From Branchiostoma floridae (Eukaryota > Chordata > Leptocardii > Amphioxiformes > Branchiostomatidae), in the NCBI RefSeq assembly GCF_000003815.2, contig NW_023365726.1:1-64000 (forward strand): a stretch of DNA of 64,000 nucleotides, written 5' to 3'. Each line of letters begins with the position of its first letter. Position 1 is the stretch's first letter. A program made the position numbers and the translations under genes. Under the pieces are notes generated by a model that ran no database searches, was not told the DNA's origin, and saw only the letters and a program-made list of their open reading frames with translations. This document shows positions 4,481 to 53,600 of this stretch, one piece after another.

Positions 4481-4487
4481 CAGTCAT

Positions 4488-7160: not shown

Positions 7161-7171
7161 AGTGCATTGAT

Positions 7172-10910: not shown

Positions 10911-11059
10911 GAAAATTATCCCGTTGGTGAATGGGAATCCCTATTACGTCACGTTGAAGTGTTTGCTGAGTTGATAGGGGTAGCGTTGTCAGGGTACAGT
11001 TGTCATTGTACAAACAGCAACGTTTACAACGTTTAATGCTGAATTTCTTTGGGTGACGC

Positions 11060-14000
11060 AATCAATAACCATTAAGAAACATTCTTCAAACTGGAACTGT
11101 TTTCTTCAAAAGATCTTCTAGAACCCGTCGTCCTGTTAACGTAAGTCACAGTACCAACTCTTTTTAGTTGAAATTTTGTATGGTAAACTCATAAATATCT
11201 TCTAGTGCTTTACAGCTACATTATCTATTGATATTGTCCAGGCTGCTTGGAAGGTGTGTCCAATTGAGTAAAACAGTACCAGCTTATATGCACGGTGTCA
11301 GGGTTGACAGAAATACATTCTTCAGTTATTCGAATAATAGGTATGTGGACACAATGTACTGTTGAAAAAGAAGAAATGGTATCCCACATGCTGAATGAAT
11401 GTATAGGTAGCATGCCCTGAATGGATGTCTAGAATGAATGTATTGTTGTTCCATGGAGCAAACTGATTTCCGAAGAGTAACCTCATTCCCCGGACTTTCA
11501 TTTCAGATACAACTTGACAATTGCTTTCTAAATCAATCTGTAATTAATTGGTTTGGTCTATAGAATGAGCCATATCTTAAGTCAATATGTACAAGGCGCA
11601 GGTATCTCAACAGTCGTTACTGTTTCAAGGTTGTAGCGTTGGTATCGGGTAACCACATATGAGTTAATGGTATGAATTCATACTGAGACCTCGTAACGTG
11701 TCTCAACGGTTAGCATGACGTCACCGTAACGAATACAGTTACCCAAGCATTGCAGCCAATCACAGTGCAATCTGAGGAGTCATAGCGTAAGGTTATACCC
11801 GCATATAATACCAGATTACGGAGAAAGCAGCTGCTACGCGTACCACAACTGTGACCACAGTACCAACGTCTGCTTTGGGATAAGCTACAGCGGAATATCA
11901 TCAACTTCAGCATTTCGAATGGACCATGCAGCTGCAGTATGTAAGTTGCCGAGACAGTGGATTCACAATTACCATGAACCTGCTAATGGTTTTATACCGG
12001 AACACGATTAAGCGATTCATCGAGAACACTGACGCTATAACTGTTATATGGCATAATATCGCCGTGCAAAATGGCGGCTATCCCGGCTGCTTCCACGGTC
12101 GTGAAAACGGAAGGATTTGTATTTTCATGTTTAGCCTGCCCGAAAGCAAAACTACTGGACTGCGTGGTTTATTACCACACATGAGGTAAGGCATTCTACT
12201 TATATGTGGTGGTCCCAATAAATGCTCATTTTCCGATGTACACGTTTTGTTACCGTCCAATCTTTTGAACTCGTGAGGGCCAGCTAGGGTATGGTAATAA
12301 AAGCTACCACTTTAGCTGATGCCGTTTGTTGATAGTTTAAAAAAGGTATATCAGGGAGCTGAGTTTTATAATTGACAATCCTATATAGAATCTAATCCCA
12401 ATCCTAAGCTGACTCTTGCATATCCTAGTCAAAAAACTATATCGGGTCTCCGAGCCGGTCTCCTCGGGTACCGTCGCGCTTTGCACCGCCTATCCGCCTG
12501 ACCCCGCCCCGAGGAATTAACCTGCATGGCGACGAGAGATTATATGGCTACCGATTCAAGGCTTCTACCCCTACAGTTCGGTGACCAGGCTGATTTTCAT
12601 TCTTCATGTTCCACAATTATCACGTTTGGGAGCAAATAAATATCTAGTTATGGTGCAGTTAAAACTGTAGGTATAGTGAATTGCATGGCCATGGCTGTTG
12701 ATTCCATCTGCATATCACTCCACTGCCAACCTTTTCTGTTAAATACATCTGTACTAAATACAGTAGTTTTCTAGTAAAATGTGCTATTCAGACTGCACAG
12801 TAAATTACCCCGGCTTTGTCCCGAGGAAGCGTTTGCGGTTTAAGTGGGAAAGACATGTCGGCAGAAGTGGGAGCCTGACATAGACGTGTCTGGATCCACT
12901 CTTAATTGTTATTTCTCTCCCACAGTCCATAGACTCCGATTGATAGTTTGATACTTACACAGCAGTAAAATTATTAACGTGGCAAAAAGTGCAATAGGAG
13001 TGACAATGGCCATATACTAGTATACTTACCTTAGTAACCACCAATATGTTATACAGACCACACGTGCTCTGCATGTCCGTTCACTGTGTGAGAGTACTTA
13101 GGACTGGGCATGGATCTTATTTAGTGGCTCTCCGCACCGTTACGAGATGACTCACGTTCTGTGCAAGCAGGGAGCTCCAATCAGAGGAAAGTAACTATTT
13201 CATGATCTATACAATAGGCTACTCTGGTTGCCCTTCTCTGTATATGGTGCGGGAATTACCCTTAGGCGTACCTTGAGTACTCAGCTGAGCCCCCTTTTCT
13301 CTTTATGAATAATGCACAATCAATAGAAGTTTATTTGCAAGTTCGTGCCCGATGGCTAATGGCAAGTACATGGTATAAACATAGGAAATATACAAGTGAC
13401 AATGTACAGTTATGAACAATATTCTACTGTAATACTAGTGTTGGCTATTTCTAAACAGGTCGGGTTTGACTTCTTTTTTGGAAGCAGAGGTTATTGTACG
13501 GCATACATTTACTCATACTCACGTTATTAACACGACCCACCACCTGCATGGAGGGGAAGGGCAGGGAGTGAATCATCTAGTTTTCGCAACTGACGGAGTT
13601 TATTGATACACTGTACATGTGTCACCTGAGCCATTATAGCATAACCAAACCAACGACTTGTTGCTCTACTTTGTCAGAAGTTGGTGAAGATATCTTCGAT
13701 TTGCTGATGAATGTCTTAATCTCAAGGAATCAATGAAACGTCTTGGCAAAAGTTAGATGTATAAATCTAATTCAACTGGCCCATTGTCAGGATGTTAAAA
13801 AGCACTGTTAACAGACTCTGAGAGGAACAATTTTCACTCTTTAGAGACAGCAAAGGTAAATGTATAAAACACTAAGTGGCTTACATGCTTTAGGGCATTT
13901 CAGTCATAAGTAGTGTCTTCATTTTCTTTCACAGAGTAGTTTTTCGTTTCACATTTCCTTCACCTAACAGTACGGAGCATTCGTTGGATTCTATGATGTG

Positions 14001-23252: not shown

Positions 23253-24346
23253 ATATTTCAGCCATCTCCCTCATGAAACAATAGGCCTTGAGGTCGTTGA
23301 CCCCTTTGGCCATTGGAAAATGACCAAAAAAATCCCAAATATATCATTTTAAAGTAGTCCATGCCAAAAATTATACATGGGTCATTTGAATAGATATCTA
23401 GAGCACCCCTTTACCAATTTACGGGTCATTAGGTTGTAAATCGAGGGAACAGGAGCCAAAAATGTCCAAATTTTGTCAAAAAATTGCCATAAAATCGCAA
23501 AATTAAGCATTTTGTTGTACCGTATGGGAAAACTTTTATTGAATTTATGTGCACATAATTGAAGGGCACTTTTATACCAACTTTCAGATCATTTGGTTGT
23601 AAAACGAGGCTACAGGAGCCAAAAATGTCCTTTTTTGGTAAAAAAATGGCCAAAAATCGCAAAATTAAGTATTTTGTTGTACCGTATGGGAAAACTTTTA
23701 TTGAATTTATGTGCACATAATTAAAGGGCACTTTTATACCAAATTTCAGATCATTTGGTTGTAAAACGAGGCTACAGGAGCCAAAAATGTCATTTTTTTG
23801 GTCAAAAAATGGCCAAAAATCGCAAAATTAAGCATTTTGTTGTACCGTATGGGAAAACTTTTATTGAATTTATGTGCACATAATTGAAGGGCACTTTTAT
23901 ACCAAATTTCAGATCATTTGGTTGTAAAACGAGGCTACAGGAGCCACAAATGTTCTTTTTTGGTCAAAAAATGGCCAAAAATCGCAAAATTAAGCATTTT
24001 GTTGTACCGTATGCCCAAACTGTAATTGAATCTAGGTGAGCATATGATCAAGGCACCTCTGTACCAAATTTCATGTCATTCGGCTGTAATACCAGGGTAC
24101 AGGAGCCCAAAATATACATAAAAATTGACAAAAACCTCAATAAAATCATTTCAAAGGCAGATATGAAAAAAATGAAAAAAACACCTGAGGGTATTGGCTT
24201 ACTCTACCTTTGTGCCAAATTTCAAGTCAATCGGTTAAAAAATGGCGGAGTTGATTCGATTTGAAGATTTGACAGGAGAAAGAAAGAAAGAAAGAAACAT
24301 TACGAATACAATATATTTCACCATACCTATGGTATGGCTGAAATAT
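23253..24346. mobile_element. Inverted-repeat element carrying a 162/163-bp tandem array
   Basis: ATATTTCAGCCAT at 23253-23265 and its reverse complement at 24334-24346 bound the element. Inside, the word AGGAGCC recurs at 23451, 23614, 23776, 23939 and 24101, giving periods of 163, 162, 163 and 162 bp. The central units are nearly identical (AAAATCGCAAAATTAAGCAT, CCGTATGGGAAAACTTTTAT) and the outer ones are diverged. Near the right end come a (GAAA)n tract and the hairpin CCATACC/GGTATGG. It has no transposase, so it is non-autonomous. Superfamily not assigned. Confidence 0.75.
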
Positions 24347-24349
24347 AAT

Positions 24350-25620
24350 GAAGACTTTCACAGGCTAATGTTAAAGTATGGGCGTTTATATGACTTAGTA
24401 CAACAATAGTATGCAGGACTACCATGAAGTAAATGTTGTACATGCATACTGCAGGTATTCTTAGCACATAAACTTTTATGCCCAAGGCTATTTACGTAAG
24501 GTATGCGCTTGAGTGTGACACGTTTCTATCCCTGTGAACAGCGATTCTTATAATTAATTCACAAATTCTCTCATTTGAATGTAGTTTTATTCAGCAGAAA
24601 AAAATGAAGACAAACAAATAGCTTTGCTATACGTTGCTGTAAAGCGTTGCTGAATCAGTATTAAGTTACAGACCAAACAATAGCTGTTGGTTAAAGTAAA
24701 CGGCCACATAGTTAGGTAGAGCTTCGTCTCAAAAGTCACATGTGTCTCAACAAAGACATACTTTTAAGGCAGACGCCCCCATCATCTTTTGCAAACGCAC
24801 TCCTAGACAAAAGTCACTATCCTTCCACCGGCCTATAAAGGGGTGATTTCAGTCACCATACTAACAACATCAGTGTTAGTACTCACTCATATCTCAAAGG
24901 AGCATATTTTCACTTTAATACTTAAACAATGTACTTTTGAGATTGGCCTCAAGCCCGCTGGATTCCTGCCAACCCGCCAAAAACTGGCACTGTGGACAGT
25001 CTAAGGTTCCTTTTCCCGCCAAAAACGAGGTGTTGTATACAAAAGGTTACGCCCTACTTAAAACCCGTACATTTCCCTTCCAACTTTCGCATTTCATGAG
25101 AATAAATTACGATCTTTGATGGAAGCCAAGTGTAGATACTATCTTATCCGAGCTTCCAGATTGAGACAATCATTAAAACGGTTTTACAGTAGCTCGGAAA
25201 AGAGAACTTAAATCACCGTCAGCGCGATATTTTCCAGCCATTTTTGCGGTGTCAGCGCGGTACTTTCCGGCCTTTTCTTATTTGGCAATCATAGACCAAC
25301 TCAACATATCCTCGTTAATCATAGATAGAAGAAATTTGGAGTCCTTACCCGTAAGGTGATGGCCACCAAGCTGTATCTGTCTGGTCACAAGTTAGGATTA
25401 CAGTCCGCTGTTGGTGCCTCGCTCGACGCCTTGAAGTGATCAATCTACTGGTCCAGAAGTTTGTTCTTGCCTACAACCAAAAGAATACTGATGATATTTG
25501 TTGCCGTCTCTCCCGGTGATAGATACTAGTACATGACCAGCAAGACACACGGCATGGTTAGGTAATCTGTGGTAAAGAGAAAATCTCGCCTCGTGGTAGG
25601 ACGTGCAGCCTGAAATGGCG
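24350..25620. other. No supported gene
   Basis: Short open frames only. Nothing recognised. Confidence 0.4.
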
Positions 25621-27595: not shown

Positions 27596-29153
27596 TCAGT
27601 TGAGGTTGGAGACATCCACTGTCACCTTCATGAACATGGTGTCATCCTTGACTAAGGCACGGTGGGTGTTCTTGAGCTCACTGAGCGGCACGAACAGTGG
27701 ACAGCCACTGGCAATGTTTGCAGTATTGGTAGGGCGCTGAAATTGTACAATACATTGTTGTACAGAATATACAACCTTATATTCTAGACACAATTTAAGA
27801 TTCTGTAGCTAGTAGAGAACCGATTGGTCGGGGTACAATTATTACTGTACATATTTGACATTAGAAAGTGAAGACAACATGGCTTGAGTGATTTTGTGAG
27901 GAAGGGTGGAAAGTGAAAAAAAGATAAGATGAATTCCAATTGCAATATTCGTTTTTGATAACGAGAACATGAATATGATATACGTGTACCTTAAAGGCAG
28001 CACTTGCGACGTCTGGGCGGTAGGATTCCATCACGCCAGAACCTCCATTCTGGTCCACACATTCGAAAGTGATCTAGGAAGATTGGTGCCTATCAATAGA
28101 TGGTTTATCTATCTATAGCCCATCATAAGTACCATTTATACCGATGTTTTACTTCCTCATTACAAACTATCATTAGAAAGTTGTTTCAGGAGAAAATGTT
28201 ATCACAAAAGACCTGGAGGAAGCAATTCAAATGCAACAAAATCAAATCAAAGTGTAAAATTATATCACATTACAGCATAAAATCGAACATGCCTGTATGT
28301 CATTAAGCGCTTCATTTTCTATATGAAATTTAGATTTCACAAAGTACATGTATTAACATGCTTAATTGGCAAATGAACACAAAGGCTAGAGACAAGTGAA
28401 GCTAGAGACTACCTTCTGGCGGAAAGGCCACGTCAGAAGTTGGTCGTAGTCTCCCTTCACGATGACTAAGAACACGGAGATGTGCGTTCCCTTTCCCTCG
28501 CCGTCTCCGTCCAAGTAGATACGAGCAAACATCTTGTATCCGTAACGACTTGTGTAGAAATTAGGAGAATCGATTTTTATATCCTTCCCCGAGATGGCGT
28601 TTTGTCGCCTGTGCTTGAAATCGTCGATCTTCCATGTAAGCTTGCCATCGTAGCTGCCAAATTCTAAGGTAGAGAGACGACTGTCCCTTTCCTCAAGTGC
28701 GGTTTCATGGCGAGCCAGGATTCTCTCGTTAGAGCGGAGCCTATTTTGGAGTTCCTTGATCTTCTCCTTGTCGCGACGACGACGGTTCTCACATGTCGCG
28801 AGCTGCTGAACTATACTGGGTAGCTTACGGAAGAGCTGCTCGCACATCGTGTCGAGGATTTCGCGCGTACGGTTGTCTAAGGCAGCGTGCGTGTTACATA
28901 AGTCGTTGTAGATGCGTTGTAGCTGGTGCAGTTCGTTTCGCACGAATCCCAGCCTTGCTTCACGTTCCCTGCAGTCAGACTGGTGGGCCAAAGAGTGTAG
29001 CAATGTGTCGATCAGATAAGAGAGGTGGTTGACGCGGTGCCGAAGTCGCTGTGCACCGAGTACATTGTTGTCGTCCTGTCCGTTAGGACTACCCCGGCTC
29101 TCTTCTGGAGTGTCCCCGCTCCTGCCTTCATCATCGCTGCCTCCTCTCTCCAT
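27596..29153 (-). CDS. TRAF-family protein B, coiled coil plus MATH, no RING seen
   Basis: Three exons on the minus strand: 28413-29153, 27990-28073 and 27596-27736. The phases match (966 nt, 321 aa). Residues ~1-30 are acidic and Ser/Gly-rich, ~35-165 are coiled coil, and the MATH/TRAF-C domain runs from ~167 (SYDGKLTWKI) to the end, with RQK at the first exon junction and NIASGCPLFVPL in the last exon. Unlike genes A and C, the C-terminal part of the domain is split by an extra intron after AAFK. I see no RING or zinc-finger exon between here and the gap at 30531, so the protein may resemble RING-less TRAFs such as TRAF1. An acceptor-like TTGGCAG sits 16 bases before the chosen ATG, so an upstream coding exon cannot be excluded. 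Such a protein could bind receptors or other TRAFs without ligase activity. Confidence 0.85.
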
Positions 29154-29575
29154 CTCGAACGGTTGATACCTGCCAATGTATATAGCGAAGCCTCATATCA
29201 AAAACACTGGAATTTGCTTTTGCTCGCCTCTTTATTTGTTTACCACCGGTGTCAACACTGCATAACTTTTGTTCCAACCTGTCCCAAAGTTCAGCAAGAG
29301 CCTAGTGAGTTTTAAGACAAAGAGGGGAGAATACAGGATGAATGTAATTTTAAGAAAATCGCTGTTGTCGGCGAGTCATTTACATTGTAAAGAATTCGTC
29401 GATTCTTTTTAAAGCTCTGCCTTGGTATTTGCTGAACTTGAGACAAATTGGATAAAAAATCACGAATCCCGTCATTTAAGCTAATCACGTGACCAGGGGA
29501 AATTTGCATATATCCCATGATGCACCGCGGTCTCAACTATATATACGCTCGAGCCGTGACGTCATCATTTGAAAA
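29154..29575. promoter_or_regulatory. Divergent intergenic region with TATA-like and CRE-type sites
   Basis: Only 422 bases separate the TRAF B start (minus) from the start codon of the next gene (plus). Just before the plus-strand ATG are CTATATATACGC (about 29537) and GTGACGTCATC (about 29560), and the ATG itself lies in AAAATGGCGG, a YY1-like context. This is the layout of a possible shared promoter. The TATA-to-ATG distance of about 35 bases would give a very short leader. Confidence 0.5.
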
Positions 29576-31675
29576 ATGGCGGGTTCCGGTGATGGTAGCA
29601 TCCCGGGAGCTCCCGTAAACACAGTGTTTACGGTTGAACCAAAGCTGTTGCAGGACGCTCCAGAAGTTTTACTTTGCTGTGTAAACACTCACCAGTTCCC
29701 AATCCATTTCTCGGGGGTTTCGTGCATCGAAGTAGTTACACGGCGCTGTCACATAGCAGTACCGGGCGACCCGCCGTCAGTGCGCCGGCTGTGCTTGATG
29801 CCTGATCGGAACCTGGATAGCCTGTTCGCCGGGGTGACTTCCCCAGTGAAACTACGGATCAAGTCTAGTTCTACCATTGATGTAAGGTTTACTTTATTTC
29901 GTAGATCTTTTAGGGACCTCCAGTATTTTTTATGGTTCGAAATTTTACAGCAACAGAAAGGCTACGAATTATAGGGGGCATGTAACGTAACGTATCGACT
30001 TTGTAAATGTTTTCCAGTGGCACTATTCCTTTTCAACTCTGATTCAAATCGAGTTCTATTATAGTTTTATGTACTAGTATGTGATAGTTATTTCTTCATT
30101 TTACATCAACACCGGCTATTGTTTTGTTGTCGAGTATTTTCACAGAAAAAAAGGTACAAAGTGATGTATTTTCAGCGTTCAGTCAGTATTACTGGGTATT
30201 TGAATAGGACTGAAAAACGTGTATAATATGAAAGGTGATTTTTCACAGCCACTTTATTTGTAAAAATTATTTGCTGTCAATGGTTTTACATCATTTCAGT
30301 GTTTGGGTATTGGAAGGGGATAGTTTTTTTTTACTGAAGACTCGTTAGCAATATTCAATTATTTTTTTAAAATACAAATACTAGAGTTTCACGACCCCAT
30401 ACCTTTGGTCAACAAACCTATCTTTACTAATAGTAGAAATCATGTCTGTCTGAGGATTGAGGCATTTACAAAAACTTGTTTTTTCCTACCACCATTTGTG
30501 GAATGGAACATGTTGTGAAGTATGTACATGNNNNNNNNNNNNNNNNNNNNNNNNNNNNNNNNNNNNNNNNNNNNNNNNNNNNNNNNNNNNNNNNNNNNNN
30601 NNNNNNNNNNNNNNNNNNNNNNNNNNNNNNNNNNNNNNNNNNNNNNNNNNNNNNNNNNNNNNNNNNNNNNNNNNNNNNNNNNNNNNNNNNNNNNNNNNNN
30701 NNNNNNNNNNNNNNNNNNNNNNNNNNNNNNNNNNNNNNNNNNNNNNNNNNNNNNNNNNNNNNNNNNNNNNNNNNNNNNNNNNNNNNNNNNNNNNNNNNNN
30801 NNNNNNNNNNNNNNNNNNNNNNNNNNNNNNNNNNNNNNNNNNNNNNNNNNNNNNNNNNNNNNNNNNNNNNNNNNNNNNNNNNNNNNNNNNNNNNNNNNNN
30901 NNNNNNNNNNNNNNNNNNNNNNNNNNNNNNNNNNNNNNNNNNNNNNNNNNNNNNNNNNNNNNNNNNNNNNNNNNNNNNNNNNNNNNNNNNNNNNNNNNNN
31001 NNNNNNNNNNNNNNNNNNNNNNNNNNNNNNNNNNNNNAGACAGACATTCAGCCTGTAGACCCCAATCTACCATACCCTGACCATTGCAACTGTCAGATGT
31101 CTGAATCTGTACAGTCACCTCCAATACTTTGCGACATGCAAACAGAGTCACAACTAGACCCTCTTGTATGTAGCTTGGAGGACTTGCATTTTTCTTCAGA
31201 TGGGGGGGAGTCGGATGACCAAGATCTAGATGCAGAGTTGGAAGAAGACGAAGACACAGATAACCATGCTGCAAATCGTATGAGTGGGCAGATTTTTTCT
31301 GTTGTTGGCTCTACGTGGCATACTAGTTGTCAGGCTGTGCTAGATAAGTGTGAAAAACTGAGAAGGGAGGGAGAAGATGTCAAAGTCCAGGTAGCCTTTG
31401 AGCCCACCAATATCAAGGATAGGAATGCCATCGTGTTTGAAATGTTCATAGAAAACACTTGGCAGATAGTGGGTTATTGCCCAGGCCCCAAAGTCCCCAA
31501 ACTGACAAGAGCAATGAGAAATGGTTTCATCACTGAGATTGCGATGCACAAGTTGACTCATTCCTTCTGCTTCCCTGCAAAGAAATTCATGTACAAAGTT
31601 CAGGTGAAGATTGTGAAGAGAGGGATTTGGGAAGGCGATGCAAAAGACTACAGGTTCAATTCGGTCATTGTATAA
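29576..31675 (+). CDS. Uncharacterised protein, C-terminal HIRAN-like domain (gapped model)
   Basis: Exon 1 (29576-29881, 102 codons) starts at an ATG in AAAATGGCGG and ends ATTGAT|GTAAGG. The last exon emerges from an assembly gap (30531-31037) and runs 31040-31675 in an open frame to a stop. That part has an acidic region (GGESDDQDLDAELEEDEDTD) followed by about 125 residues with VVGSTWH, FEPTNIKDRNAIVFEM, WQIVGYCPGPKVPKLTRAM and YKVQVKIVKRGIW. The pattern (E)P-N--D-NAI ... -GY-P resembles the HIRAN domain, which in helicase-like proteins binds DNA ends. The link between the two exons across the gap is inferred from strand and spacing only. The N-terminal exon matches nothing I know. It converges on the large gene at 33151-39468. 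Confidence 0.55.
30531..31037. other. Assembly gap (507 N)
   Basis: Run of N. Open frames that cross it are not evidence of coding. Confidence 0.99.
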
Positions 31676-31762
31676 AAAGTATAACGAGGCAACAACCCAT
31701 CAACTCGATTTGATCTGTAGTTTTATTGGGAATTTTGTTACTCGCTTGTGCCTCCACTCTTA

Positions 31763-32880
31763 ACTTTCTGCCCTGACTCACTATATTATTAGTGGAGGGC
31801 GATACCACATTGCGACTGCAAAAAAAAGTGGTCGCTGGTTGGATTAGGCAGTTGGTTGCTGGGAGAAAGGCAAAAACTGATATCTTATAAGGTCAGAACC
31901 CGTATAACACTTAGGACTATGTCTATACATGGTCTCCTCTTTCCTGACTTGCCACAAAATAACATCTTTTAGCATTTATTCTATTACCTAGGTTCAGGAA
32001 CATTCTTACATTTTAATGGTTCAAAATACTGACAGTTTACTTCTTATTGTGTTGACAGTGGTCCTCTTATATTTTATTTAAGTCAGTTTTGATAAACTAT
32101 TGTTCTATCATAAGTAGGCAGTGTTTGTCTAACAATTAGAATCTGGTGTTTGAATGAAGGTAGATATCTTGAACTAAAATGGTTGATTACTTTCTGCCCT
32201 GACTCACTATATTATTAGTGGAGGGCGATACCACATTGCGACTGCAAAAAAAAGTGGTCGCTGGTTGGATTAGGCAGTTGGTTGCTGGGAGAAAGGCAAA
32301 AACTGATATCTTATAAGGTCAGAACCCGTATAACACTTAGGACTATGTCTATACATGTTCTCCTCTTTCCTGACTTGCAACAAAATAACATCTTTTATGA
32401 GTATCATTGAGTAATAAAACTTAAGGTTCTGAAGAAAACAAAATCTGAAGAGCATGCCTCATAAGTTCAATAACTAGTTTGACAGTTACAATAACTAGTT
32501 ACAATAACTAGTATAACACTTGCAACAATGTATATACCTGAGTTCTCTTCTTTCTTGACTTGCAACAAAATAGCATCTTTTAAGTATACATTCAGCAATA
32601 AAACTAAAGGTTCTGAAGAAAACAATATCCGCAGTGCTTGCCTCATATATACAATAACTAGTTTGACAGAAGGATACTTCAAAGCATAACTAGGCAAAAA
32701 CCTGTATAACACTTGCGACAATGTCTATATATACCTGTGGTCTCAAGATCAAAAACTGATTGTCATATAAGGTCAATACCTGTATAACACTTGCAACAAT
32801 GTCTATACCCGAGTTCTCTTCTTTCCTCACTTACAACAAAATAGCATCTTTTACAAGTATACATATACAGAATAAAAAGT
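31763..32880. repeat. Repeat cluster with ~426-bp period
   Basis: About 210 bases from 31763 (ACTTTCTGCCCTGACTCACT...) recur almost unchanged at 32189-32397, a 426-bp offset. Two more diverged partial copies follow at about 32500-32690 and 32755-32880, recognised by TATAACACTTGCAACAATGT and ACAAAATAGCATCTTTTA. The cluster lies between the convergent genes ending at 31675 and 33151. It may be a local tandem duplication of a mobile-element end. Confidence 0.75.
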
Positions 32881-33150
32881 AAACATACATAAAATAAAAG
32901 ACTTAGATATATACAACAGTGGTGACAGGTGGAAACAAGTGGCTACAGGCACTTTCTTCTGTAAAAAAACAAACAATGCTTGGTACCATGACTAAAAAGT
33001 ACATTTATATCAAAATCTCACTCATCAAAAAATCGGGCAAGTGGGGTAGGACATGAGCTTGCCCAATCAGCACTTTCACTTGGCTAGGACAATAAAACTT
33101 TTGGACTTGTCCAACCCTGGATGTGGATATAACAGTTTAAAAGTAATCTT

Positions 33151-36100
33151 CTAAACAGGTGGCAAGCTATTTGGGACCTCAGGCAGTGGCACTTCTGGTC
33201 TGTGCAGTATCTGCCTGATGGTCCCCCTGTTCCTGACCGGCAGGACACCCCTTGCAGTTGTGAAAATCGAAGCGTCTTCCCTTCTACAAGTGCGCAGTCG
33301 GTGGAGGCGCAGACGACCATCCTCAGGGTCATCATTGAAGGATGGGTAAGTGTCTTCTGCTTCCCTGAACCTCTCACTGATTGTCCAGTAGTAGAAAGGC
33401 AGGTCCGGGTCAATTCTCTTTGAGAATTCCCTGTGAAAGACAAATAAATAATTACAAACCTGTTCAAGTGAAATAATACATGCCATGGACACAAGAATTG
33501 TGCCCATACTGCCCATAATGACCTGTCCACAAGTGATTTGTAATGTACGTCGCAAGTACAATGTGAGTACATGAAATCTTTCAATAATTTTACAAAAAGA
33601 CCATACTGTAAATGTTTGAAAAGATACTTAAATACCTGACTTCTGTAGGCCATCGAGCATGCAACTCCTTGAGGGTAAAGGTGTTTCCCATGTGTCGGTG
33701 AAGTCCAGCAAAGAAACACTCTACATCGTCTGTCGTGCTCGCTCTTGGATGCTCTTCATAGCCAATTGTCGCACTCTCACTTCTCCGCAGCTCCATTGAC
33801 TCGATATTTGTTGTGACCGCGATGAGGGTTTCTCGGCTCCACCCAAGTACTCCTCGACCGAACCTAAAAAAAGCGACCAGAACAAAGATATTCATTTCAC
33901 TGGGTCTTTAATCCATCTAGGCATTCTCGAGTTATACTATTTCAAGTAAAGCCCCTATCTCACTGGATTTGCAAGTTAAAGAGAGCGGTTACTGCATTTT
34001 TTATATCTAATCATATTCATTGTGTAGGGTTTTCTTGCCTGTTGATGTCAAGAGTTGAGAAGTCTGGGGGGTAACGGCGCCATGGGGGGGAACGGTGATA
34101 TGGCATCAGCTCATCAAGGATCATGTCCATCATGGCTGTGTTCTTCTCCTTCCTCTCTTCCTCTGAAAGCCCTCGGCCATCAGCTGCTTCATGCCATCCA
34201 GCAACGACTTCGATATAGCATGCTTCCCGGTGATACCCTCTGTGTCGGAGAAACCTGACCATGTTGTAGGACAGCAAGATCTCTGCATCGGTGACAGACT
34301 GCTTTCGGAAACCAAACAGGGCTGCCTCTGTTAGCCCTGGCTTGGGCTCACCATCTTGCGGATGGAGCGCTTCTTCGAGAGCATGGTGGTCAAACCACCG
34401 GGGAGGCTCTTTTCTGAGGTGACCAGCAATTCTCTTGAGGAGATGGCAATGATCTTCTCTTCTGTGAAGGTAGTTGAGGCCGTCTTTCTCTGGGACATAC
34501 ATGTGGTGTGTGAAATCAACCCCCTCAGTTCGAAAGTCCTCTATTCTGAGACGGTATCTGTATGTGGCCATTATTGATCGCAGCATGTCAGCCATGCACT
34601 CATGCGAGTTGGGCACGGAAAGGTTGAGGGGCCACAATCTGGGGGCACGAGTTGTCCACGCAGTCTTACTACAGCATCCTCCTCTCTCNNNNNNNNNNNN
34701 NNNNNNNNNNNNNNNNNNNNNNNNNNNNNNNNNNNNNNNNNNNNNNNNNNNNNNNNNNNNNNNNNNNNNNNNNNNNNNNNNNNNNNNNCTGTCAATGGCA
34801 TGCCATTGTCATCCTCTGCACAGTGAAACCACATCATCAAATTAGTACAAACTGATGGGGAGTTCAGAGTCTATTGTGACATAAGCTGAACACATTTGGT
34901 TCGACAAGGGCAGAATTTGTGAGAAGATACAAGATGGCTTCACCATATTCCCCCTGCAGAATATCCCTGAAATCAGGTGAATTTGTTGCATTGTAAGTGT
35001 ACTTGGGCCAAAGATATATCACACGGATAAAACATACTAATGTCAGTGGTACTGCACAGTCTGATATAATAGAGAGGCCAAACATTAAAGTCAAGTCAGC
35101 AGAGAAAGAAACTAACCTCCAACTTTCCGGAGTGACTTCAGCACAGTGTCAGAAGCCATCCTCCTGACACTGTCTTTCACCCCACGAATGATTTCATAGA
35201 GATGAATAGGGCGCTTGTTCCCAAGCGTCCTTAGGGAGTTGAACTCTCCATCCGTAACATCACCTGACAACAAATCACAAAGCACCACATCACTGATAGA
35301 TTTGCAAAATGAAAAAGCTCTAAATGGAAAATTAGCTTTGAGTACCTAAAAAAGCCCCCAGCGCACAGGCTCTAGGGCCAACCCACTAGCATTGCACCAG
35401 AATATACCAATGGTCAACACCTCAGCAAAGACTACAGTCTACAAATGGACTTTATCATGAATTTTCGTTGAAATGTCTCAATAAAAAAGACAAATTTTCC
35501 TATAATGGATTTTGTTCAGCTTTGCATCATTCAACAGAAGCACTGTCATATTACAAAAAACAGACAAGAGTAACACTCTACTTTTACTTTTGTGCTTTAA
35601 CTTCAACTTTTGTCTTTACTATGTTTATAGTGGAGTTAAGCTTCACATGTAAAGGATAGACTCTTACCAACAGGTATCAGTCCCAGCTTCTTGGCCTCCT
35701 CATGGCACTTGTCCAGGAACTGCTGGAGGAACTGATCCCGGATACTGTGATATGGAATGAGCAGGATTGGCACAGCATAGGGCTTCTGATTTCGTCTTTC
35801 GTCAGACACCAAAACGACCAATGCATGATCAGCAGCCACTCTCTTCTTCTTGAAGAGATTGTGCAAGTAGGTTTTGTTGTCTTCTCTCAGTTCCACCAGA
35901 CATTGGGCCACACGGCCAGGTTGAGGGGAAGCAGTTCCAAGAGCTGCCAGCAGCCTTTCATACCTACATAATATAGAAAGCATGTGCATGAAGGTAAAGG
36001 TAAAGCAGTCATCCTCAACTGATGTGAAGCATAAATTGTGCTTTTTCAAGTAGCTCAGGTACATGTAGTTGTGCAATGCGGCTTTGCTAACTACTTGATT

Positions 36101-39100
36101 TATATAACTATGCAGACAGAAAATTGAAGTCAATATTTCTAAAAGTCACCTTTCATAGAAGGCTTTGGCCTGCTCCAGAAGGGTATTGTACTCTACCCTG
36201 TCCCATGCCAGGTTTTTCAGCACATCTGTAGATGAGTTAGCCTGCTCGAATTTCTCCTTATACCTCTTGTTTGCTGCCTCAAGGCCACCTTTCAGCAGAT
36301 CAATGTCTTCTCCAAGATCCTGAAGGAGACTGAGGAGACAGGCCTCTAGATTGCGTGGCACGCAGGACTTCCCAGCTTCCCTGACAAGGACCATGCGTCT
36401 GTCGTTGTCAGCCCTTAGCTTCTCCAGGCTTCCATCCCCAAGATCAACGTCTCCAGCCCATTTGCCCTTTGTAGATGTCTGCAGGGCAACCTTCAAATCA
36501 CAAGCATCAGCCTTAAACCAGACACGTGCTCCTGGCTTCGTCTTGGCAAAGGATTCCAGTGCAGCGATCTGTATATAACAGAACAAACTTTACTGTATAC
36601 TAATCTGATATGCATGATATAGTAAAAGTTTTCCCAACATCCATGTCTATTCTTTAGTAGTGTGTCTACCAAATGAAGCTCAATAATTTCCATTCATAGA
36701 CATCACAAGGAGCAGAACTGCTGATAGTATAATTGCCAAGAAGAGAATGCCTCTGGAACAATTTTTCTCTTTTTTTTGAAGGTTTGTAAACTCACATGGA
36801 TACTGGAGTTGCCATCAAACTTCTCAGTCTGTGCCAGTCTGTACATGGTGTCCAGGGAGGGGGCGGCGACATTAATATGTGCCTGTCAGAGAAGGAAGAG
36901 AATCATATGTCAAATAAGACATGACAAGTAAAAAAAAAATAGACAAAAATTACACAGTAACAGAACAAGATGTACTTTCTTCAAATGCACAGTATTTAAG
37001 TGCCCCTAATTCTTTCACAATTCATGTTATCATACTACTCAAGGTAAATATCACTCTGAGCCAGCCTCCTTAGTACTGTACTAACTTATAGGGAATCTAC
37101 TGGAATAACCAAGATAAAAGCTCCTTGGAATAACTAAGTATGTCAAATACATACAAAATGGAATTGAAAAGGTATCGCTATTATGGCAAATATTCAGATA
37201 CTACATTAAGTATATGGACTGGTTATCATCACAATTGAAAATTTGTGAAACATAAAAGCCATCTTTATACATGTAGTAACCTTCAATGGGTCCAAGTCAG
37301 TGCTTTCCAGGCCACTCCACCCTGGCCCCCGAAACAGCCTCAAGAACCTGGTTGGAAACTCAGCACACATGCTCTCCAACCAGCTGGCATAATCTGGAGA
37401 AATGCTGACCTACAGAACATACATGAGTACCATTGTATAAATTAATACCATAACAAGTTGGACATAACACTGTCTCTTGCTATGAAGTCTGCAATCTTCA
37501 TCATATCTGATATCACCATAGATAATTTGTTCACACCCTCCTACCACAATGAACAAAGTTCCTGATCACACTTCTAATTGCCCAACACTACATGGCTTGG
37601 GGCCTGGCTAATTGCACAGGAAGATGGTAGCAAAAATGAATTGGGGTTTTTGGAAAACCCTGTCCAGTCCAGACAGGGAAATGGGGCGGAAAACCCTGTC
37701 CAGTCTGAAAAGAGGGTCTGCATAGGGGTTCCTGGCAATGCTTAAAAGTATTACTTCAGACAGCACTTACACAGCATAATGAGTGACCCAAAGGTGCAAT
37801 ATGCATGCACACAAAGTCAGTTCTGTCAAATGCAAAGTACCCAATTAACACTTATCTGGTAGGACATGAGGGGAGAGAATTGTCAATCAAACAATGGATA
37901 GTGAGTGTCCGTCAATTTCGGGTTGTTAAATAATGGCAATACATTACAAAGACAGGCTTTGAAAGGTTTTCTTTAAATGATAAGTGCGCAGCACTCATTT
38001 TGAGAGCTGGTCTGTTTAAATCCTGGTTTAATAGAATGACTGCGAAAGGTTTCAATATCAACACGACTTTAGTACACAATGTTATAACATTACAATATAT
38101 TTTACAATGCACTACAATAAAGCCGAGATGGCATTTTTCAAACGATAGTACAAGTTGTGAGCTATATAGAACTATGTATCCTTTTAAAAATAATGTGTTT
38201 TATTTGCAAAATTATGCCGTAAGGCTAATAGCATGTTCAGTCTCAAAGACTTAAAGAGTAGACGTTTTTTATATGATGAGAAGTAACAATGATGGATGAT
38301 TTTTGTTAAGTAATAATTTTTTTATGACATTGTGCCACACTTCAAGTTGATGTTATTTCTGTGCTTAGCCGTATCAAAGATAAAAAAAATGTTGTTGTAT
38401 ACTAGTACTTAGTAGCTTACACCGTATACCCCCATGCAGACCCTCTTTTCAGACAGCTTACAATGTATACCCCCATGCAGACCCTCTTTTCAGACTGGAC
38501 AGGGTTTTCCGCACTCCGGACTGGACAAGTTTTTCCGAAAACCCAAATGAATTGAGGTAATTAGTTACAAAATTAGACAAAACTAGCCAAAACAACAAAC
38601 AAAAAACTAAGAAGGCATTCTTTACTGGAAATGCCATCATTTTGAATTAGTACATCAGATAAGTATCATTATATACTGATGCTAACCTGATGTACATTGG
38701 TGGCACTGAAGAACTCCATCTGGTATTGTAGTAATCCAAATGGCATCCTGTCAATTTGGAGCAGAGGGGTGGAGGTGCCAGGCCTGTTGGTGCTCAAGAT
38801 GTGGGCAAACTTGTACAGGATGTTGGGCTTGTTGTGTTCTTGTAGGGTGGACATGGCATTGATGGACTTTGAAAAGAAGTCGGTTGGGTATGTGGAAATA
38901 TTCTTTGCTGTAGCTACAACTGAGAACAGTTTATCACCAAAGGATAGAACTGAAGATGATTGAACGATTTGAGGAAGCAGCATAAGCATGAAAGAATCAA
39001 ATTCTGATTGGGTCAGGGCCTTGCAAGAAGACAGTACTGTTGTGACATCATCCTGGCAGCTATGTTCAGTTTGTGTTTGCTGGTCCACAGTCAACTTCTT

Positions 39101-39468
39101 TGTCTGGCATCCCCTGCTGACTGTTTCTTTGGTTTTCTTTGCACGGCTGATTGAATTCGTCTCAAGACCAAAAGACTTCACAGCAGCTTCAAGGGATTCG
39201 TCGAATTTCGTCCTCCACTTCCTGCACCTGTTCCTCACTGTGTTTGCTGTGAATAGAAAGAGAAACAGTGTGTCACTTAAGAGAAACCTTTGCTATTGAC
39301 AAAGTATGACTTCATATCCCAACACCTTGAGGGACTACACTCACACTAAATGTGAGAAATAATAGAACTTCTTTTGATTTCTATCAGTTCTAAACTTGTT
39401 GCAATAATCTATCAAGGTAAAGACAGCAAGAGCCATTGTTTTTCACTGACCTGAAAGAAGTTCACTGC
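33151..39468 (-). CDS. Large uncharacterised gene with RNase H-fold (transposase-like) features
   Basis: Minus-strand exons with matching phases: 39451-39468 (continues into a gap), 38687-39246, 37281-37409, 36796-36882, 36150-36568, 35668-35963, 35117-35263, 34039-34815 (holds a gap), 33636-33863 and 33151-33430 (stop). The sum is about 946 codons plus missing parts. The intron after 34039 uses a GC donor. I do not recognise the product by name. One stretch reads like the core of an RNase H fold: a strand ending [10 protein letters not shown], a hairpin AVPILLIPY, a helix, then [15 protein letters not shown] with a second Asp. Further on, [18 protein letters not shown] recalls the Glu-containing block of hAT/P-type transposases, followed by [17 protein letters not shown] recall similar uncharacterised proteins in lancelets and cnidarians, without a name. 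A domesticated or intron-bearing transposase is an inference. Confidence 0.75.
34689..34788. other. Assembly gap (100 N)
   Basis: Run of N inside an exon of the gene at 33151-39468. The frames on the two sides differ when 100 is taken as the true length, so the real length is probably different. Confidence 0.99.
37636..38554. mobile_element. ~900-bp long-inverted-repeat element in an intron
   Basis: About 100 bases near 37644-37735 (ending AAAGAGGGTCTGCAT) match the reverse complement of about 38430-38546. The arms contain repeated AAAACCCTGTCCAGTC words. ATGAATTG occurs on both sides (37636-37643 and 38547-38554), a candidate 8-bp target duplication. The right arm has a further 40-base local duplication (CCCCCATGCAGACCCTCTTT twice). 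The interior has no recognisable transposase. The element lies in the intron between exons 37281-37409 and 38687-39246 of the uncharacterised gene. Confidence 0.75.
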
Positions 39469-39568
39469 NNNNNNNNNNNNNNNNNNNNNNNNNNNNNNNN
39501 NNNNNNNNNNNNNNNNNNNNNNNNNNNNNNNNNNNNNNNNNNNNNNNNNNNNNNNNNNNNNNNNNNNN
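39469..39568. other. Assembly gap (100 N)
   Basis: Separates a minus-strand exon on its left from a plus-strand caspase exon on its right. The length is probably a placeholder, and the 5' parts of both genes may be missing here. Confidence 0.99.
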
Positions 39569-39569
39569 C

Positions 39570-40653
39570 GAATTTGAGGAGCTGGAAAGTAGACAAGGAG
39601 CTGACAAAGACACAGGTAAGAACTTTTTGTGTAAACATTATAATAACAATTTTGTAAAGACACGATTTCTTAAATGTGGTTGTGAAGGCATGATCTGAAT
39701 TACAATTAACAGGATCAAAAATATCTTTAAAAAACGCTGCAGTACCAAGGTCAATCAACAGGAGACCTAAAATCGACACAATAACCCCATCTACAAAACA
39801 TGGCAATCCATTAAGTGGTTCTTGAGATATATCCCAATACATCATTTTGGGTCCAAGTACCTCCAGTTTTCATTTAGGTTATCATAAAAAGTACATAATA
39901 AAACTAAAACTGCGCATGAATACGTACAATGTAAAATTCCTCCTGGTCTACACAATTCTGTAAGGTTTTTTTTTAATCCATCACCCACCAATTATATAAG
40001 TTTGCAAATGGTACTTACGCCCAAACTTTTGAACCTTAGAACGTCTGCAAGAGATCTTCGAACGCCTCAACTTTATCGTGACGGTCTTCACCAACCTCAA
40101 CTTCGCGGGGATGATAACAGTTATGAGAGACCACGGGAAGATGGACTTCTCCCAGTACGACTGTTTCATCTGCTGTATCATGTCTCACGGGGCGCTCGGG
40201 AAGGTCTTCTCCTCTGACAATGTAGGTATTGATATTTGTGAGCTGATCAAACCCATGGAGACCCAAAGGTGCCCCTCCCTGGCAGGAAAACCTAAGTTGT
40301 TCTTCATCCATGCATGCCAAGGTGACAGAACACAGGGTAAGACGACACGGAGTGACTTCACGCACGACGTGAAAGCCTTACCTTCTATGCCTTCCTTTAC
40401 TCACGAAGCTGACGTGTTCTTGGGTCTCTCCACTGTTCCTGGGTTTGTAGCCCCTCGCAACAATGACGGGTCGCCCTACATACGCTTTCTGACTGAGGCA
40501 CTTGACAAAATGTCCCCGGTCCACGACCTCTTGAAAATTATGACAACAGTCTGTAAGCAAATGAATGACATCAAAGACGGAGGGCTGGGATATGTTTCTT
40601 GCAACCTCAGCACCCTGAGGAAACGGCTCTATTTTCTCTGTGATTCAGACTGA
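39570..40653 (+). CDS. Caspase-8-like cysteine protease, C-terminal part (partial)
   Basis: Two plus-strand exons: one emerging from the gap (39570-39615, donor CAG|GTAAG) and 40040-40653 with a stop. Joining them gives DKDT-E-RLQEIFERLNF, which fits the start of a caspase p20 subunit. The catalytic His block is CCIMSHG and the Cys block FFIHACQGD. KPKLFFI, CPSLAGKP and the p10-like part (DVFLGLSTV ... APRNNDGSPYI ... LRKRLYF) place it near initiator caspases 8/10. These cleave substrates after Asp, downstream of death receptors. The Gln of the usual QACxG is His here; in caspase-1 that Gln lines the S1 pocket. The pocket Arg (APRNN) is kept. The p20-p10 linker is short and has several Asp residues. 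The prodomain is not visible; it would lie in or before the gap. Confidence 0.88.
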
Positions 40654-43774: not shown

Positions 43775-45799
43775 CCTTTACCTTTACCTAGTCCCATCCT
43801 CATGTCTGAGGGTCGGGGACTATGGTAGCATCCAGTATCAGCCTCCTCCACTCCCTTCTGTCTCTGGCTCTGTGGGCGCACTCAGCCAGTGGCATGCCCA
43901 TCCACTCCCGGATGTCATCGCCCCACCTCCTTCGTGGTCTCCCGCGGCTCCTCCTTCCGTTGATGGACCCTTGTAGAATGTGGGTGCTGATGTTGCCTGC
44001 TCTCGTGACGTGACCAAAGTATTGGAGTTTTCTTCTTTTTATGATGTTCAGCAGTGTCCTGTCTACTCCTAGCTGTTCTAACACAGAGTCATTTGTGCGA
44101 TGTTCCGTCCAGCTGACACGGAGGATCTTTCTGTAGCATTTCATCTCCAACGCCTGAATCCTGCGGATGTCACTGGCGTGTAGAGTCCATGCCTCACAGC
44201 CATACGTGATCACCGGCCAGACAAGAGTCCTCAGCACCTTCAATTTGATGGCTGTCTTGAGGGATCTGTCCTTCCAGATCACATCTAGACTTCGGAGGGC
44301 TGCCCGAGCTGTACCTAGACGTATGCTGATCTCATGGCTGCAGCTGGCTGTTTGTTCCATGGTAGAACCCAGGTACTTAAAACTAGAGACCTGTTGTAGT
44401 TGCTCTCCTCGGCAGGTGACTGTCACTACGGTGGGTTCCTTGGTAACGGCCATCACTTTGGTCTTTTTGGTGCTGATTTCCAGCTGATACTCACTAGAGA
44501 CGCTGTCTGTGGAGTCCAGCAGTTCCTGGAGTCCTTCAGGTGTAGTGGCTATCAGTGCTATGTCGTCGGCAAAACGGAGGTTGTTGATGATCCTGCCACT
44601 TACATTGACACCAATGTTGGGCTGTTCCTCCACCGATTCCCTCATTACAGCCTCTGAGTAGAAGTTGAAACACATCGGCGACAACAAGCAGCCTTGCCTT
44701 ACACCCTTACTGACTACAAACCACTCTGTAAGATCATCTTCCACTCTCACTGCTGCTTGCTGGTCCTTGTAGAGATTGCATAGCAACTTCACCAAGTGCC
44801 CTGGAACTCCCATGGATTCCATCACCTTCCACAAGGTTTGATGATTAACAGAATCAAAGGCTTTCTTGTAGTCGATGAAGGCCATAAAGAGCTTCACGTT
44901 GCTTTCCCTAGCTTTCTCCATCAGTATCCTCAAGTTGAAGATCTGGTCCCTCGTCCCCACCCTCTTTCTGAAGCCCATCTGCTCTTCAGCAAACTCCTGC
45001 TCTGCCACTCTCTCCATACGCCGATGGAGGATTCGGAGGAGGACTTTACTAACATGAGATATGAGGGCTATAGTGCGGTGTTCTGAACAGTCAATGGTGC
45101 CAGGTACATTGGGGATGGTAATGAAGACAGACTTCACCCAGTCAGACGGCCACTGACCAGTGCTGACGANNNNNNNNNNNNNNNNNNNNNNNNNNNNNNN
45201 NNNNNNNNNNNNNNNNNNNNNNNNNNNNNNNNNNNNNNNNNNNNNNNNNNNNNNNNNNNNNNNNNNNNNNNNNNNNNNNNNNNNNNNNNNNNNNNNNNNN
45301 NNNNNNNNNNNNNNNNNNNNNNNNNNNNNNNNNNNNNNNNNNNNNNNNNNNNNNNNNNNNNNNNNNNNNNNNNNNNNNNTATTGTCACTGTACAGCTTCT
45401 CGCAGTATTCCTTCCATCTTTGAAGAATGCTTTGTAGTTTGGTCAGTTATGCGGTTATCAGCTGCTTTGATGTTCCTCTGTCTAGGCTGAAAACCTCGTC
45501 TCAGTTTCTTGATGGTAGAGTAGGCTTTCCTTGAGGTGCTGTTGCTTTGCAGGCCCTGTTCTTATATCGACACACTGTTCCTCTAACCACTTTGCCTTGT
45601 CTATGCCTAGCTTCTTTCTGGATTTGTCTGTCCAGTTCTCTGTAGCGTTGGTCCCCATTTACAGTGGTGCTGCGCTGGGCTTTCAAGTCCCGCCTTCTGT
45701 CCATAAGGTCCAGTGTACTTTGTCTTTATCCAGGGTCGGTTCGCTCTTCTTGGTGCTTTACCAAGGGTCTTTGCTGCAGTGGACTTTATTACTTCGTTG
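43775..45799 (-). mobile_element. Non-LTR retrotransposon (LINE) with reverse transcriptase, gapped
   Basis: The minus strand 43800-45137 encodes 445 residues of a reverse transcriptase without its start: AFIDYKKAFDSV (~residue 90), VRQGCLLSP (~147) and the catalytic RFADDIAL (~188-195). The C-terminal part has YGCEAWTL, RILRVSWTEHRTN, QYFGHVTR and RGRPRRRWGDDI. That tail is common in RTE-like and related elements; I do not fix the clade. Upstream parts continue beyond gaps (45170-45379 and 45800-45899) in broken frames (RRDLKAQRS, RPWIKTKYTG), so the copy is probably inactive. The 3' end carries a short (GGTAAA)n tail near 43775-43790. Endonuclease not visible. Confidence 0.85.
45170..45379. 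other. Assembly gap (210 N)
   Basis: Run of N inside the LINE. Confidence 0.99.
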
Positions 45800-50688: not shown

Positions 50689-53600
50689 TTAAAGGTCCGA
50701 AGTATCCACGATGATCTTGAGATACATGGTGTCATCTCTGACGTAACCATGGCTGCTGCTGTCGAGCTGACTGAGCGGCACGAAGAGCGGACATCCACTG
50801 GCGATGTTCATGTCACTGGTGGGCCGCTGGAAGGACGAGCTGGTCGGGTCAGGACGGAACGCGTCCGTTACATTTTCTCGGTTGTTCTGGTCCACCAACA
50901 TGAAAGTTACCTGGAGAAACAGAACATAAACGTGCATTATTTTTTTTACATGAGAGGTGTGTACAATCTCACCTTACACAACACAGGTCAAAATTTCAAA
51001 TATGTTAGACACCTTGAAATATCGTGATAGCACAAAAGAACATAAAATTCGAATGCATCGGTGCAATGTTTCACCTTTTGTCTGAATGGCCAGCGCAGCA
51101 GCCCATCGTAGTGCCCCCTCATGACTACGAAGAACAGGCTGACATGAGTACCCTTGCCCATCCCGTCTCCGTTCATGTAGATCCGGGCGCACATTTTGTA
51201 CCCTGTACGGCTGGTGAAGAAACATGGCGAGTAGAAACTTGCTGTCTTCCCCGTGATGGCGTCGTGGCGCTTACGTGTGAAGTCTGCGATCTTCCATGTC
51301 AGGATGCCGTCATAGCTGGTCAGTTCTAACGTCTGGATCCGGAGGTCTTGTTCCGCGAGGGCAACGTCCTTCAGAGCGATGATCCTTTCCAGAGACCTGA
51401 CCTTCCTCTCCAGAGTCTCGATGATCTCCCTGTCCTGACGACGTTGTCGTTCGTACGCCTCCATCTGGGAGCTGCACTTCTCGATCTCACGGTTCAGAAC
51501 GGCGACGATCCCTTCAAACGTGCCGACCCTTGTCTCCCATGCAGCTATTTTCCTCCTCAGTTCTTCCACCCTCGCACGTTCCTGCTCAACCCGGTTTTCT
51601 AGTGTTTTGTTGCCGCCTGACGTTGATCCTCCTGATGGTTGCTCGCTTGACAACTTACCTTCAATGGTAGCAATTTTGGCGTCAGCATCTTGGATGCCCT
51701 TTTCTAGTCGTAGAAGCAGGATCCGCATATTTTCGCGTGATTCTTCCTCTTTTTGCCGGTGTTGGTCGACATTTGTAGCTAAGCAAAGAAGGTATGTGTT
51801 GGTCATGCTCAAATGATGCTGGACCGTCTTCTTCAAGTGCTCAGGGAAGTGCTTCTTCTCCATCTGTGCATATCAAATACAAAACCATCATTGTAGGTTT
51901 CCGTTGCTATGATGATCAAGTGCAAGCTTTGATACTACAAATAGAATTACAGCAAAATATCTACCCAATGTATGTACCTTTTCCTTGCACCCCATTGGTT
52001 CGAAGCTGCATGTTATCTTCATGTTGGGGCAGTCTCCTGTCTCCGGCTGTTGATGCTCCCGAAGTTGAGCCCTTGTCAGACCTTTCTTATTGCACCAGTC
52101 ACACCGTACTGGTGCTGCTGGGCATGTCTGTTTGTGGGTCTGAGTAAAAAGGCGGATATTACTAGTATGTAAAACTAGAAATAAATTCAGAAATGCAAAA
52201 CAACTTAGAGGTCAATGACGTATAGCAACTATTCTATCACTCCTCGTTCCCAGCTTTGTCGTCTTGTAAGTACAGCCAACTGCAACCCAGTTTAACATAT
52301 TCCTAGCCTCCATAGCAGGCTCTCTGTGCCTTTTTCATCTTCTTGGGCTCATAATACAATTTTGCTGGCCTTGTCTTTTTGTACTGGGTCGCTTGTACTG
52401 TCAGTATGGGACCTGCTATGGAGGCTTACATATTCCGAGGTTACTAGATATATGCAGATAGCTTCATACCTTCAGTTCTTTATGAGGAGTTGTCTCATCA
52501 CACCATTGACACGTTACAGGTCTATATTCACAGTCCGACTGTAGATGGTTGGCCAGGTTCTTCCTGCATATGGTCGCCTTACAGCCTTGGCCGGCGTTGA
52601 TACATGTGATCTTTTCGTAGCCACATTCTGATAAATGTTCCTAAACATAAAACAATCATACTTGTGGTCATTCATTATCACATAAGAATACACCTGGTCG
52701 TACGAATGGAGCTACATTTGTTGTACTATCACACAGAAATCAAACTATTAAAACAATTACTGAACTTTCAATTCTGATCCTCATATATATTGTATAATTT
52801 GCCTCAAAATGGATAAGATAATTGTGTTTTCTTACCGTACGCTGTAATGGAATGAAAATGGTACATAGTTGAGTGTGTAGTGTTAAAATGGTATGCTTAC
52901 GTGCTTTAAACATCATACCTACCATGAGATTGCGAACAATGCCCTCCCATTTACAGCCATCTTCGACATTGCTGCAGAAAATCGCCAGGCCTAGGATTTC
53001 CCGTTCTATAGCTTTGTCTGGATACACCTGGATCATGGAATATACAAAACACTGAGGTGTCATACAAACAAACTACACTGTGGCAATGATATTAGCGTTA
53101 CTGCTGGCGTTGTTGTTTGTTTCGAAGCTAGAGCAACGTCTGTACCAGTTCAGCATGTGAATATATATAATACACTTTGGACAACTTGTTGGTAAAATAG
53201 TTACGTCAAGCCAAAACTAGTATAGTTTCTATTCTTATCATAACACACATACTGTTGTTCTAATCGTGTTTTGAACAAACAAGTTTTGGATACAACTTAC
53301 GTCCTGAGCTTGAACCACTTCTCCACAATTCCGTGCTTTGCATTTTCCTCCCCAGCTCCTATAAAAAGATAGCAAAATAATGACTAAGACACTATGGTTT
53401 TATCTACATGTAATGCTTTGATGTATCAAAGAGCAATCTGTATCTGTATCTATATAGCCGGTATAACCGCCATTCGGCGTAACACACCAGCTTCGCAGGC
53501 ACGCGGCGCGGCAGCAGCTGGTTATATTACACTGAACGATCCGTCACACCTAACTTTTGCACATCTAACTGCAAGCGTTCTTTAAAACTATCCAGAGAAG

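Follow-up and report, generated by a model that had tools for sequence, protein, structure and literature searches.

A 12.45-kb intron-bearing DNA transposon of Branchiostoma floridae with a candidate DDE + DxxH transposase and an accessory gene

A string of catalytic residues made up of D, D, a DxxH motif (CxxH in some) and E has been described for transposases of the hAT, Kolobok, P, MuDR and Dada superfamilies (PMC3706591). In P transposase the residues are D230, D303, D339 and E531 (PMC8230255), and in human THAP9 they are D304, D374, D414 and E613 (PMC8230255; PMC7776569); P elements and Pdre2 make 8-bp target site duplications (PMC10983969). Dada elements, one of which is listed for Branchiostoma floridae, are 4.7 to 11 kb long and mostly intron containing; Dada-U6_DR has 11 exons and encodes 1402 residues, some members have an added exonuclease domain, and those with definable ends are described as having no terminal inverted repeats, duplications of 6 to 7 bp and small-RNA genes as targets (PMC3706591). 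Mutator-like elements (MULEs) have 8- to 10-bp duplications, a CxxH motif and repeats typically longer than 100 bp, with 2 of 14 mosquito families having repeats under 60 bp (PMC5225508). Here we describe an element of about 12.45 kb (12,454 bases in the numbering of its copy C7a) with a transposase gene and a second gene, most of which lies in a 64,000-nucleotide stretch of the B. floridae assembly GCF_000003815.2 (NW_023365726.1 positions 1 to 64,000, on contig C168; hereafter the window). With a probability of roughly 0.86, we take it to be a DNA transposon of the cut-and-paste type that encodes its own transposase, with a D-D-E active site, and an accessory protein. This reading starts from what was observed of the ends, the target duplications, the copies, a short two-ended derivative, selection on the reading frame and the gene content.

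When the genome (513 Mb in 431 contigs) was searched with the C-terminal 385 residues of the transposase, 57 exon-level matches were obtained, and seven loci, the window included, were 94 to 100% identical in exon 9; the remaining matches were more diverged or degenerate, except for the end of a relative, C233. Stretches of 10 kb from the six other loci matched each other and the window copy at 97.3 to 99.95% DNA identity over long matches, introns included, the highest value being that of C7a against C7b (99.95% over 9,988 bases). A DNA search revealed a sharp element border at window position 29494. A pattern search with this right end found nine right ends at 0 to 1 mismatch and four more matches with two mismatches, while the left end, read from C9 and C7a, gave 12 exact matches, one with one mismatch and three further matches with two or three. 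The two ends are inverted repeats of each other: of 33 aligned positions, 31 agree, one is a gap and one a mismatch.

Flanks were read at 13 left ends and nine right ends. In every insertion with both ends paired on one contig (7 of 7), an exact 9-bp target site duplication was found, and the chance of a single such match is 4^-9, or about 4e-6. The paired insertions are C7a, C7b, C1, C15 (outer right end), the window copy, C2 (outer left end) and a short derivative of 758 bp on C7, which consists of left-end and right-end sequence. The paired ends of the C15 and C2 insertions are 15.6 and 17.4 kb apart, so both must carry extra DNA, each with one inner end. Eight right outer flanks could be fully read and all differ, on which ground we rejected segmental duplication as the source of the copies; the ninth, at C9, runs into an N gap after nine readable bases. 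One 9-bp word, GTGGAAGCT, is shared across chromosomes by the left flank at C9:7204219 and the inner right flank at C15:14926969, neither of which occurs within the element itself; it looks as if the halves of two insertions had been swapped in an assembly chimera. The inner left end of C2, the left ends on C5, C302, C6 and at C2:9.26 Mb and the right end of C9 are unpaired, and the C5 and C302 left flanks are identical over the 35 bases read. The element thus has the terminal inverted repeats and the target site duplication of fixed length that are among the defining features of a cut-and-paste DNA transposon, and it has been recently mobile. The first-pass annotation had reported a multi-exon gene with a possible transposase core, which it took to be either domesticated or an intron-bearing mobile element, and had proposed that copies be counted and their borders inspected; the nearly identical, dispersed copies, together with inverted repeats and 9-bp duplications, bear out its second alternative.

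The window copy is itself split. Its element bases 2271-12454 run from 39468 down to 29494, bases 1-2270 lie outside the window at contig positions 84247-86516, reaching the contig end, and the same 9-bp word stands on the outer flanks of both parts. Since the parts lie apart and yet share their duplication, two parts of scaffold C168 appear to have been joined the wrong way round at the N gap 39469-39568. A single long exon with a caspase domain (40033-40653; PF00656, E 3e-35) stands beside this gap, and given the misjoin, this caspase-type gene is probably not a true neighbor of the element.

In the window, the transposase gene lies on the minus strand, its exons bordered by GT-AG with one GC donor adjoining 34039; splicing was read from exon borders and the open frame. 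Put together in phase, the exons are free of stops over 560 residues on one side of an assembly gap and 385 on the other, whereas random sequence with the same composition should contain about 45 stops; their G+C content is 0.51, compared with 0.32 to 0.40 for the introns (all-N gap excluded). C7a has the gene complete, with an ATG, a stop and 1094 residues in 11 exons. The multi-exon gene of the first-pass annotation is therefore real, and its limits of 33151 and 39468 are correct for what the window shows. Three corrections apply: by comparison with C7a, the pieces 34789-34815 and 34039-34688 are a single exon (exon 9) interrupted by an assembly gap; the N-terminal portion of about 125 residues, which comprises exon 1 and most of exon 2, falls on the far side of the gap at 39469; and when set against C7a, exon 9 of the window copy contains two insertions of a single base each, which break the frame there. 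A pair of inverted repeats at 37635-38553, with arms of about 40 bases, was considered for the ends of the element and rejected; it is a smaller insertion within a transposase intron, and its counterpart is present in C7a.

The full frame of 1094 residues is open in four of the seven transposase-bearing copies (C7a, C7b, C9 and C15). C7a and C7b do not differ at a single exon or intron base of the gene. Between C7a and C9 there are 8 synonymous and 2 nonsynonymous changes (dN/dS of about 0.07), and between C7a and C15 there are 9 and 5 (about 0.16); the transposase frame is under selection, and changes in it are mostly synonymous. Against the relative C233, the C7a transposase has a dN of 0.19 and a dS of 1.41, but over the final 93 codons the two are far closer (dS 0.047), and because of this C233 looks chimeric. 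At the protein level, the 3′ end of C233:3200-8300 is 97% identical and the rest 59 to 81%, which may reflect a chimera or gene conversion. Another relative, at C13:11849600-11856500, has about 33 to 50% identity and no stop in any matched exon and may be a further active family or a gene that has been domesticated. Chromosome C6 (28.1 Mb) holds 15 of the 57 transposase matches, six of them with stops; 14 lie at 25.6-27.9 Mb and one at 19.7 Mb, and the cluster near the chromosome end is a graveyard of relatives.

Four relatives (C7a, C233, C1:31.7 Mb and C13) were aligned, and in all four KxDxxDxK, the D and E of VSDERR, TDGE, EDHxHxLKR and DDVE are invariant, as are many other acidic residues. 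The candidate catalytic residues are, in C7a numbering, D411, D633, a DxxH motif at D788-H791 and E974, with spacings of 222 (D411-D633), 155 (D633-D788) and 186 (DxxH Asp to Glu). As far as sequence conservation can tell, these residues fit a D-D-DxxH-E transposase, for which an RNase H fold is a candidate that we infer. The Glu block is invariant as had been predicted; so is the Asp of VTDGEF, one of two Asp residues assigned at first to the start of an RNase H fold, but a better candidate for the first Asp lies upstream, in exon 6, in place of that of VSDERR. Searches of the Protein Data Bank (PDB) by sequence gave nothing in one case and two chance-level matches (E 0.16 and 1.4) in another, an NCBIfam search gave nothing, and no relatives were confirmed in viral or prokaryote contigs. 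Weak Pfam matches to Pep1_7, Stealth_CR3 (E 0.015) and Noda_Vmethyltr are taken to be chance, and a Myb/SANT look of the N-terminal part was seen by eye only, with Pfam showing nothing there.

The second gene lies on the opposite strand. In C7a it has two exons, encodes 359 residues and starts about 80 bases inside the right end; its exon 2 is also present in the window, C9, C7b and C1 (partly, at 99.8 to 100%) and in C2 (98%). The C-terminal part of the C7a protein matches HIRAN (PF08797) at E 0.016, and its homologue beside the C233 transposase does so at E 0.0027; these matches cover overlapping stretches of the profile, but at 15.4 and 17.9 bits, respectively, both fall below the cut-off of 24.7, and the accessory protein has no helicase part. 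A slightly better match of the C7a protein to DUF6691 (E 0.0078) is taken as chance. The C7a and C233 accessory proteins are 49% identical over 170 residues (dN 0.38, dS 1.54), and the gene is kept in this diverged relative; the stretches used for the C1:31.7-Mb and C13 relatives end before the accessory-gene region. Among the papers listed in our literature search, none showed, in its title or the opening of its abstract, a link between HIRAN and an animal transposon.

We envisage that the N-terminal part of the transposase would bind the 33-bp inverted repeats and that an active site of D411, D633 and E974, together with the DxxH motif D788-H791, would cut the element ends. The cut ends would then be joined to target DNA at positions staggered by 9 bp, giving rise to the 9-bp duplications. 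HIRAN domains bind 3′ ends of DNA, and on this basis the accessory protein, if its possible HIRAN domain is genuine, may act on the 3′ ends exposed by cutting or help in gap repair. In this scheme catalysis, DNA binding and the roles of both proteins are inferred. The coordinates of all features are collected below.

Table 1. Features of the element in the window (positions in the window; strand of the transposase gene is minus)
Feature	Position	Strand	Remarks
9-bp target site duplication	29485..29493	.	GTCACGTGA in gene orientation; partner at contig 84238-84246, directly left of left end
Element, right four fifths (bases 2271-12454, C7a numbering)	29494..39468	-	
Right terminal inverted repeat	29494..29525	-	plus strand reads CAGGGGAAATTTGCATATATCCCATGATGCAC
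Accessory gene exon 1	29576..29881	+	102 residues
Accessory gene exon 2, visible part	31040..31675	+	weak HIRAN match towards C-terminal end; exon start in N gap 30531-31037
Transposase exon 11	33151..33430	-	stop codon 33151-33153
Transposase exon 10	33636..33863	-	holds candidate catalytic Glu
Transposase exon 9	34039..34815	-	N gap 34689-34788 inside; DHCHLLK (DxxH motif); two single-base insertions relative to C7a
Transposase exon 8	35117..35263	-	candidate second Asp; first letters of the motif come from exon 7
Transposase exon 7	35668..35963	-	candidate strands 2-3
Transposase exon 6	36150..36568	-	candidate first Asp, then insert (helices in low-confidence model)
Transposase exon 5	36796..36882	-	
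Transposase exon 4	37281..37409	-	
Transposase exon 3	38687..39246	-	
Transposase exon 2, end only	39451..39468	-	start and exon 1 on the piece at contig 84247-86516

Elsewhere in the window, a segment at 24000-24350 (within 23513-24350) recurs at 97 to 100% identity in at least 29 other places, beside tandem copies spaced by about 162 bases and about 78% alike. Frames for coiled-coil and MATH (TRAF-type) proteins lie on the minus strand at 7705-8571 (recognized by eye) and at 28389-29192 and 50991-51872 (recognized by Pfam), and reverse-transcriptase frames are found at 53530-55227 and 60709-62376 (Pfam) and at 43800-45446 (by eye).

There are not many transposon superfamilies, and they differ in their chemistry and in how their members have come to be host genes. 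If our reading is true, a very recently mobile element, whose transposase is selected despite ten introns and whose conserved second protein may recognize 3′ ends of DNA, would make it possible to study how large transposons of eukaryotes mend the breaks that they cause. The case also shows that an uncharacterized gene with many exons can, in an animal, be an intact transposon.

A number of results weigh against reading the element as a mobile transposon with a DDE transposase and a conserved partner. Three of the seven copies are frameshifted by single-base insertions or deletions (the window in exon 9, C1 in exon 7 and C2 in exon 2), and the C15 stretch stops following the element ahead of the accessory gene; a DNA search that scored 40 of 2808 candidates lists no C15 match there. 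A Pfam scan of the window and C7a proteins found no family above cut-off, just as no family could be named at the outset, and a PDB search with the family profile gave six matches (best E 0.14), none meaningful. The best Pfam E-values among the relatives, each in one of the four members and listed without cut-offs, belong to Hikeshi-like_C (0.00069), BCDHK_Adom3 (0.0036), NleF_casp_inhib (0.017) and TPMT (0.095), and all are taken to be chance. Structure models, made for two single exons, reached mean pLDDT values of 48.5 and 44.4 and are too poor for use; they have a strand-strand-helix and three strands followed by helices at the places expected for an RNase H fold, at a confidence too low to count. 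The missing fold and the many other invariant acidic residues would suit a DNA transposon with a non-DDE transposase, in which the D-D-E residues are conserved for other reasons. We consider this unlikely, given that the order KxDxxDxK, TDGE, DxxH and DDVE matches the published DDE + DxxH string and that even the low-confidence models put strands where the fold would have them. A duplication of fixed length together with inverted repeats is, moreover, typical of DDE enzymes. Less probable still is a host gene derived from a transposase and no longer mobile, although the many introns and the purifying selection on the frame would be expected of one, and although the element ends of the more diverged C13 and C1 relatives were not looked for. 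Host selection on one gene explains neither the nearly identical dispersed copies with inverted repeats and 9-bp duplications nor the short derivative, and for the window family (a statement that does not cover the C13 and C1 relatives) the dispersed copies with their duplications leave domestication, the other alternative of the first-pass annotation, unsupported and indeed rule it out.

Within the DDE reading, the element may be a strongly diverged representative of one of the named superfamilies that have DxxH or CxxH (P, MuDR, Dada, hAT or Kolobok), perhaps already in Repbase under such a name, a possibility to which we would give somewhat less than an even chance. The motif is common to all five (PMC3706591), 9-bp duplications are known in MULEs (PMC5225508), and the DxxH-to-Glu interval, counted from the Asp, is 186 here and 192 in P. 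To these may be added weak matches to PF21787 (TNP-like_RNaseH_N), at E 0.086 for the window protein (13.6 bits against a cut-off of 24.6) and in two of the four relatives (best E 0.16), but a genome search with PF21787 gave five other places, none in the element family. P/THAP9-type genes above the PF21787 cut-off, separate from the element, lie at C19:10311853-10312299 and C11:17076605-17077051. In a profile comparison with amphioxus P-like genes at two of those five places, the best alignment hit the expected strands and the second Asp. Its hhalign probability, however, was 0.6% (E 0.1), and a score as high came up in 4 of 150 shuffles; these values, along with first two intervals of 222 and 155 where P has 73 and 36 (PMC8230255), belong with the negative results above. 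A match of the first-Asp segment to two amphioxus P-like genes, made by eye, was reached by under 3% of shuffles in two of eight sequence pairs and was not unusual in the other six. Judged on these comparisons, kinship with P-type enzymes would be a lead and not a result.

Our literature search, which covered titles and the openings of abstracts and had subscription papers and Repbase outside it, found no description of the element. Comparable predicted proteins may occur in other marine invertebrates. For none of P, hAT, Dada and typical MULE elements is the full set of defining features present. We file the element as a new lineage, perhaps a new superfamily, of DDE + DxxH transposons. In its fullest and distinctly tentative form, the proposal is of a new superfamily with an intron-rich DDE + DxxH transposase of 1094 residues, in which the first strand is followed by a long insert, together with inverted repeats of 33 bp, duplications of 9 bp and a dedicated HIRAN-type partner for DNA ends or for repair of donor and target gaps; it would be active now or have been so until very recently.

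Comparison with the known systems can be made feature by feature. hAT elements make 8-bp duplications and have hAT Pfam domains, whereas the duplications here are 9 bp and no hAT model is among the Pfam matches; Kolobok elements make 4-bp TTAA duplications, which the 9-bp duplications do not resemble. With MuDR and the MULEs, the element shares a duplication length within the 8- to 10-bp range. Its 33-bp repeats, in contrast, are well short of the typical MULE repeat of more than 100 bp, although short repeats alone do not exclude a MULE, and the MULE transposase domain of Pfam was not among matches up to E 10. Like Dada, the element has an intron-containing transposase of more than 1000 residues with DDE and DxxH, but it has 33-bp repeats, 9-bp duplications and differing flanks (which were not screened for RNA genes), whereas Dada elements with definable ends are without inverted repeats and have small-RNA genes as their insertion sites. 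Dada is further characterized by N-terminal CCCC and C-terminal CCHC zinc fingers, and P/THAP9 by a GTP-binding insertion domain. P and THAP9 share with it the DxxH motif, and the inverted repeats of Drosophila P, at 31 bp (PMC7776569), are close to its own in length; its duplications, on the other hand, are 9 bp instead of 8, no THAP domain was matched by Pfam in its N-terminal 196 residues, and, unlike P, it carries an accessory gene.

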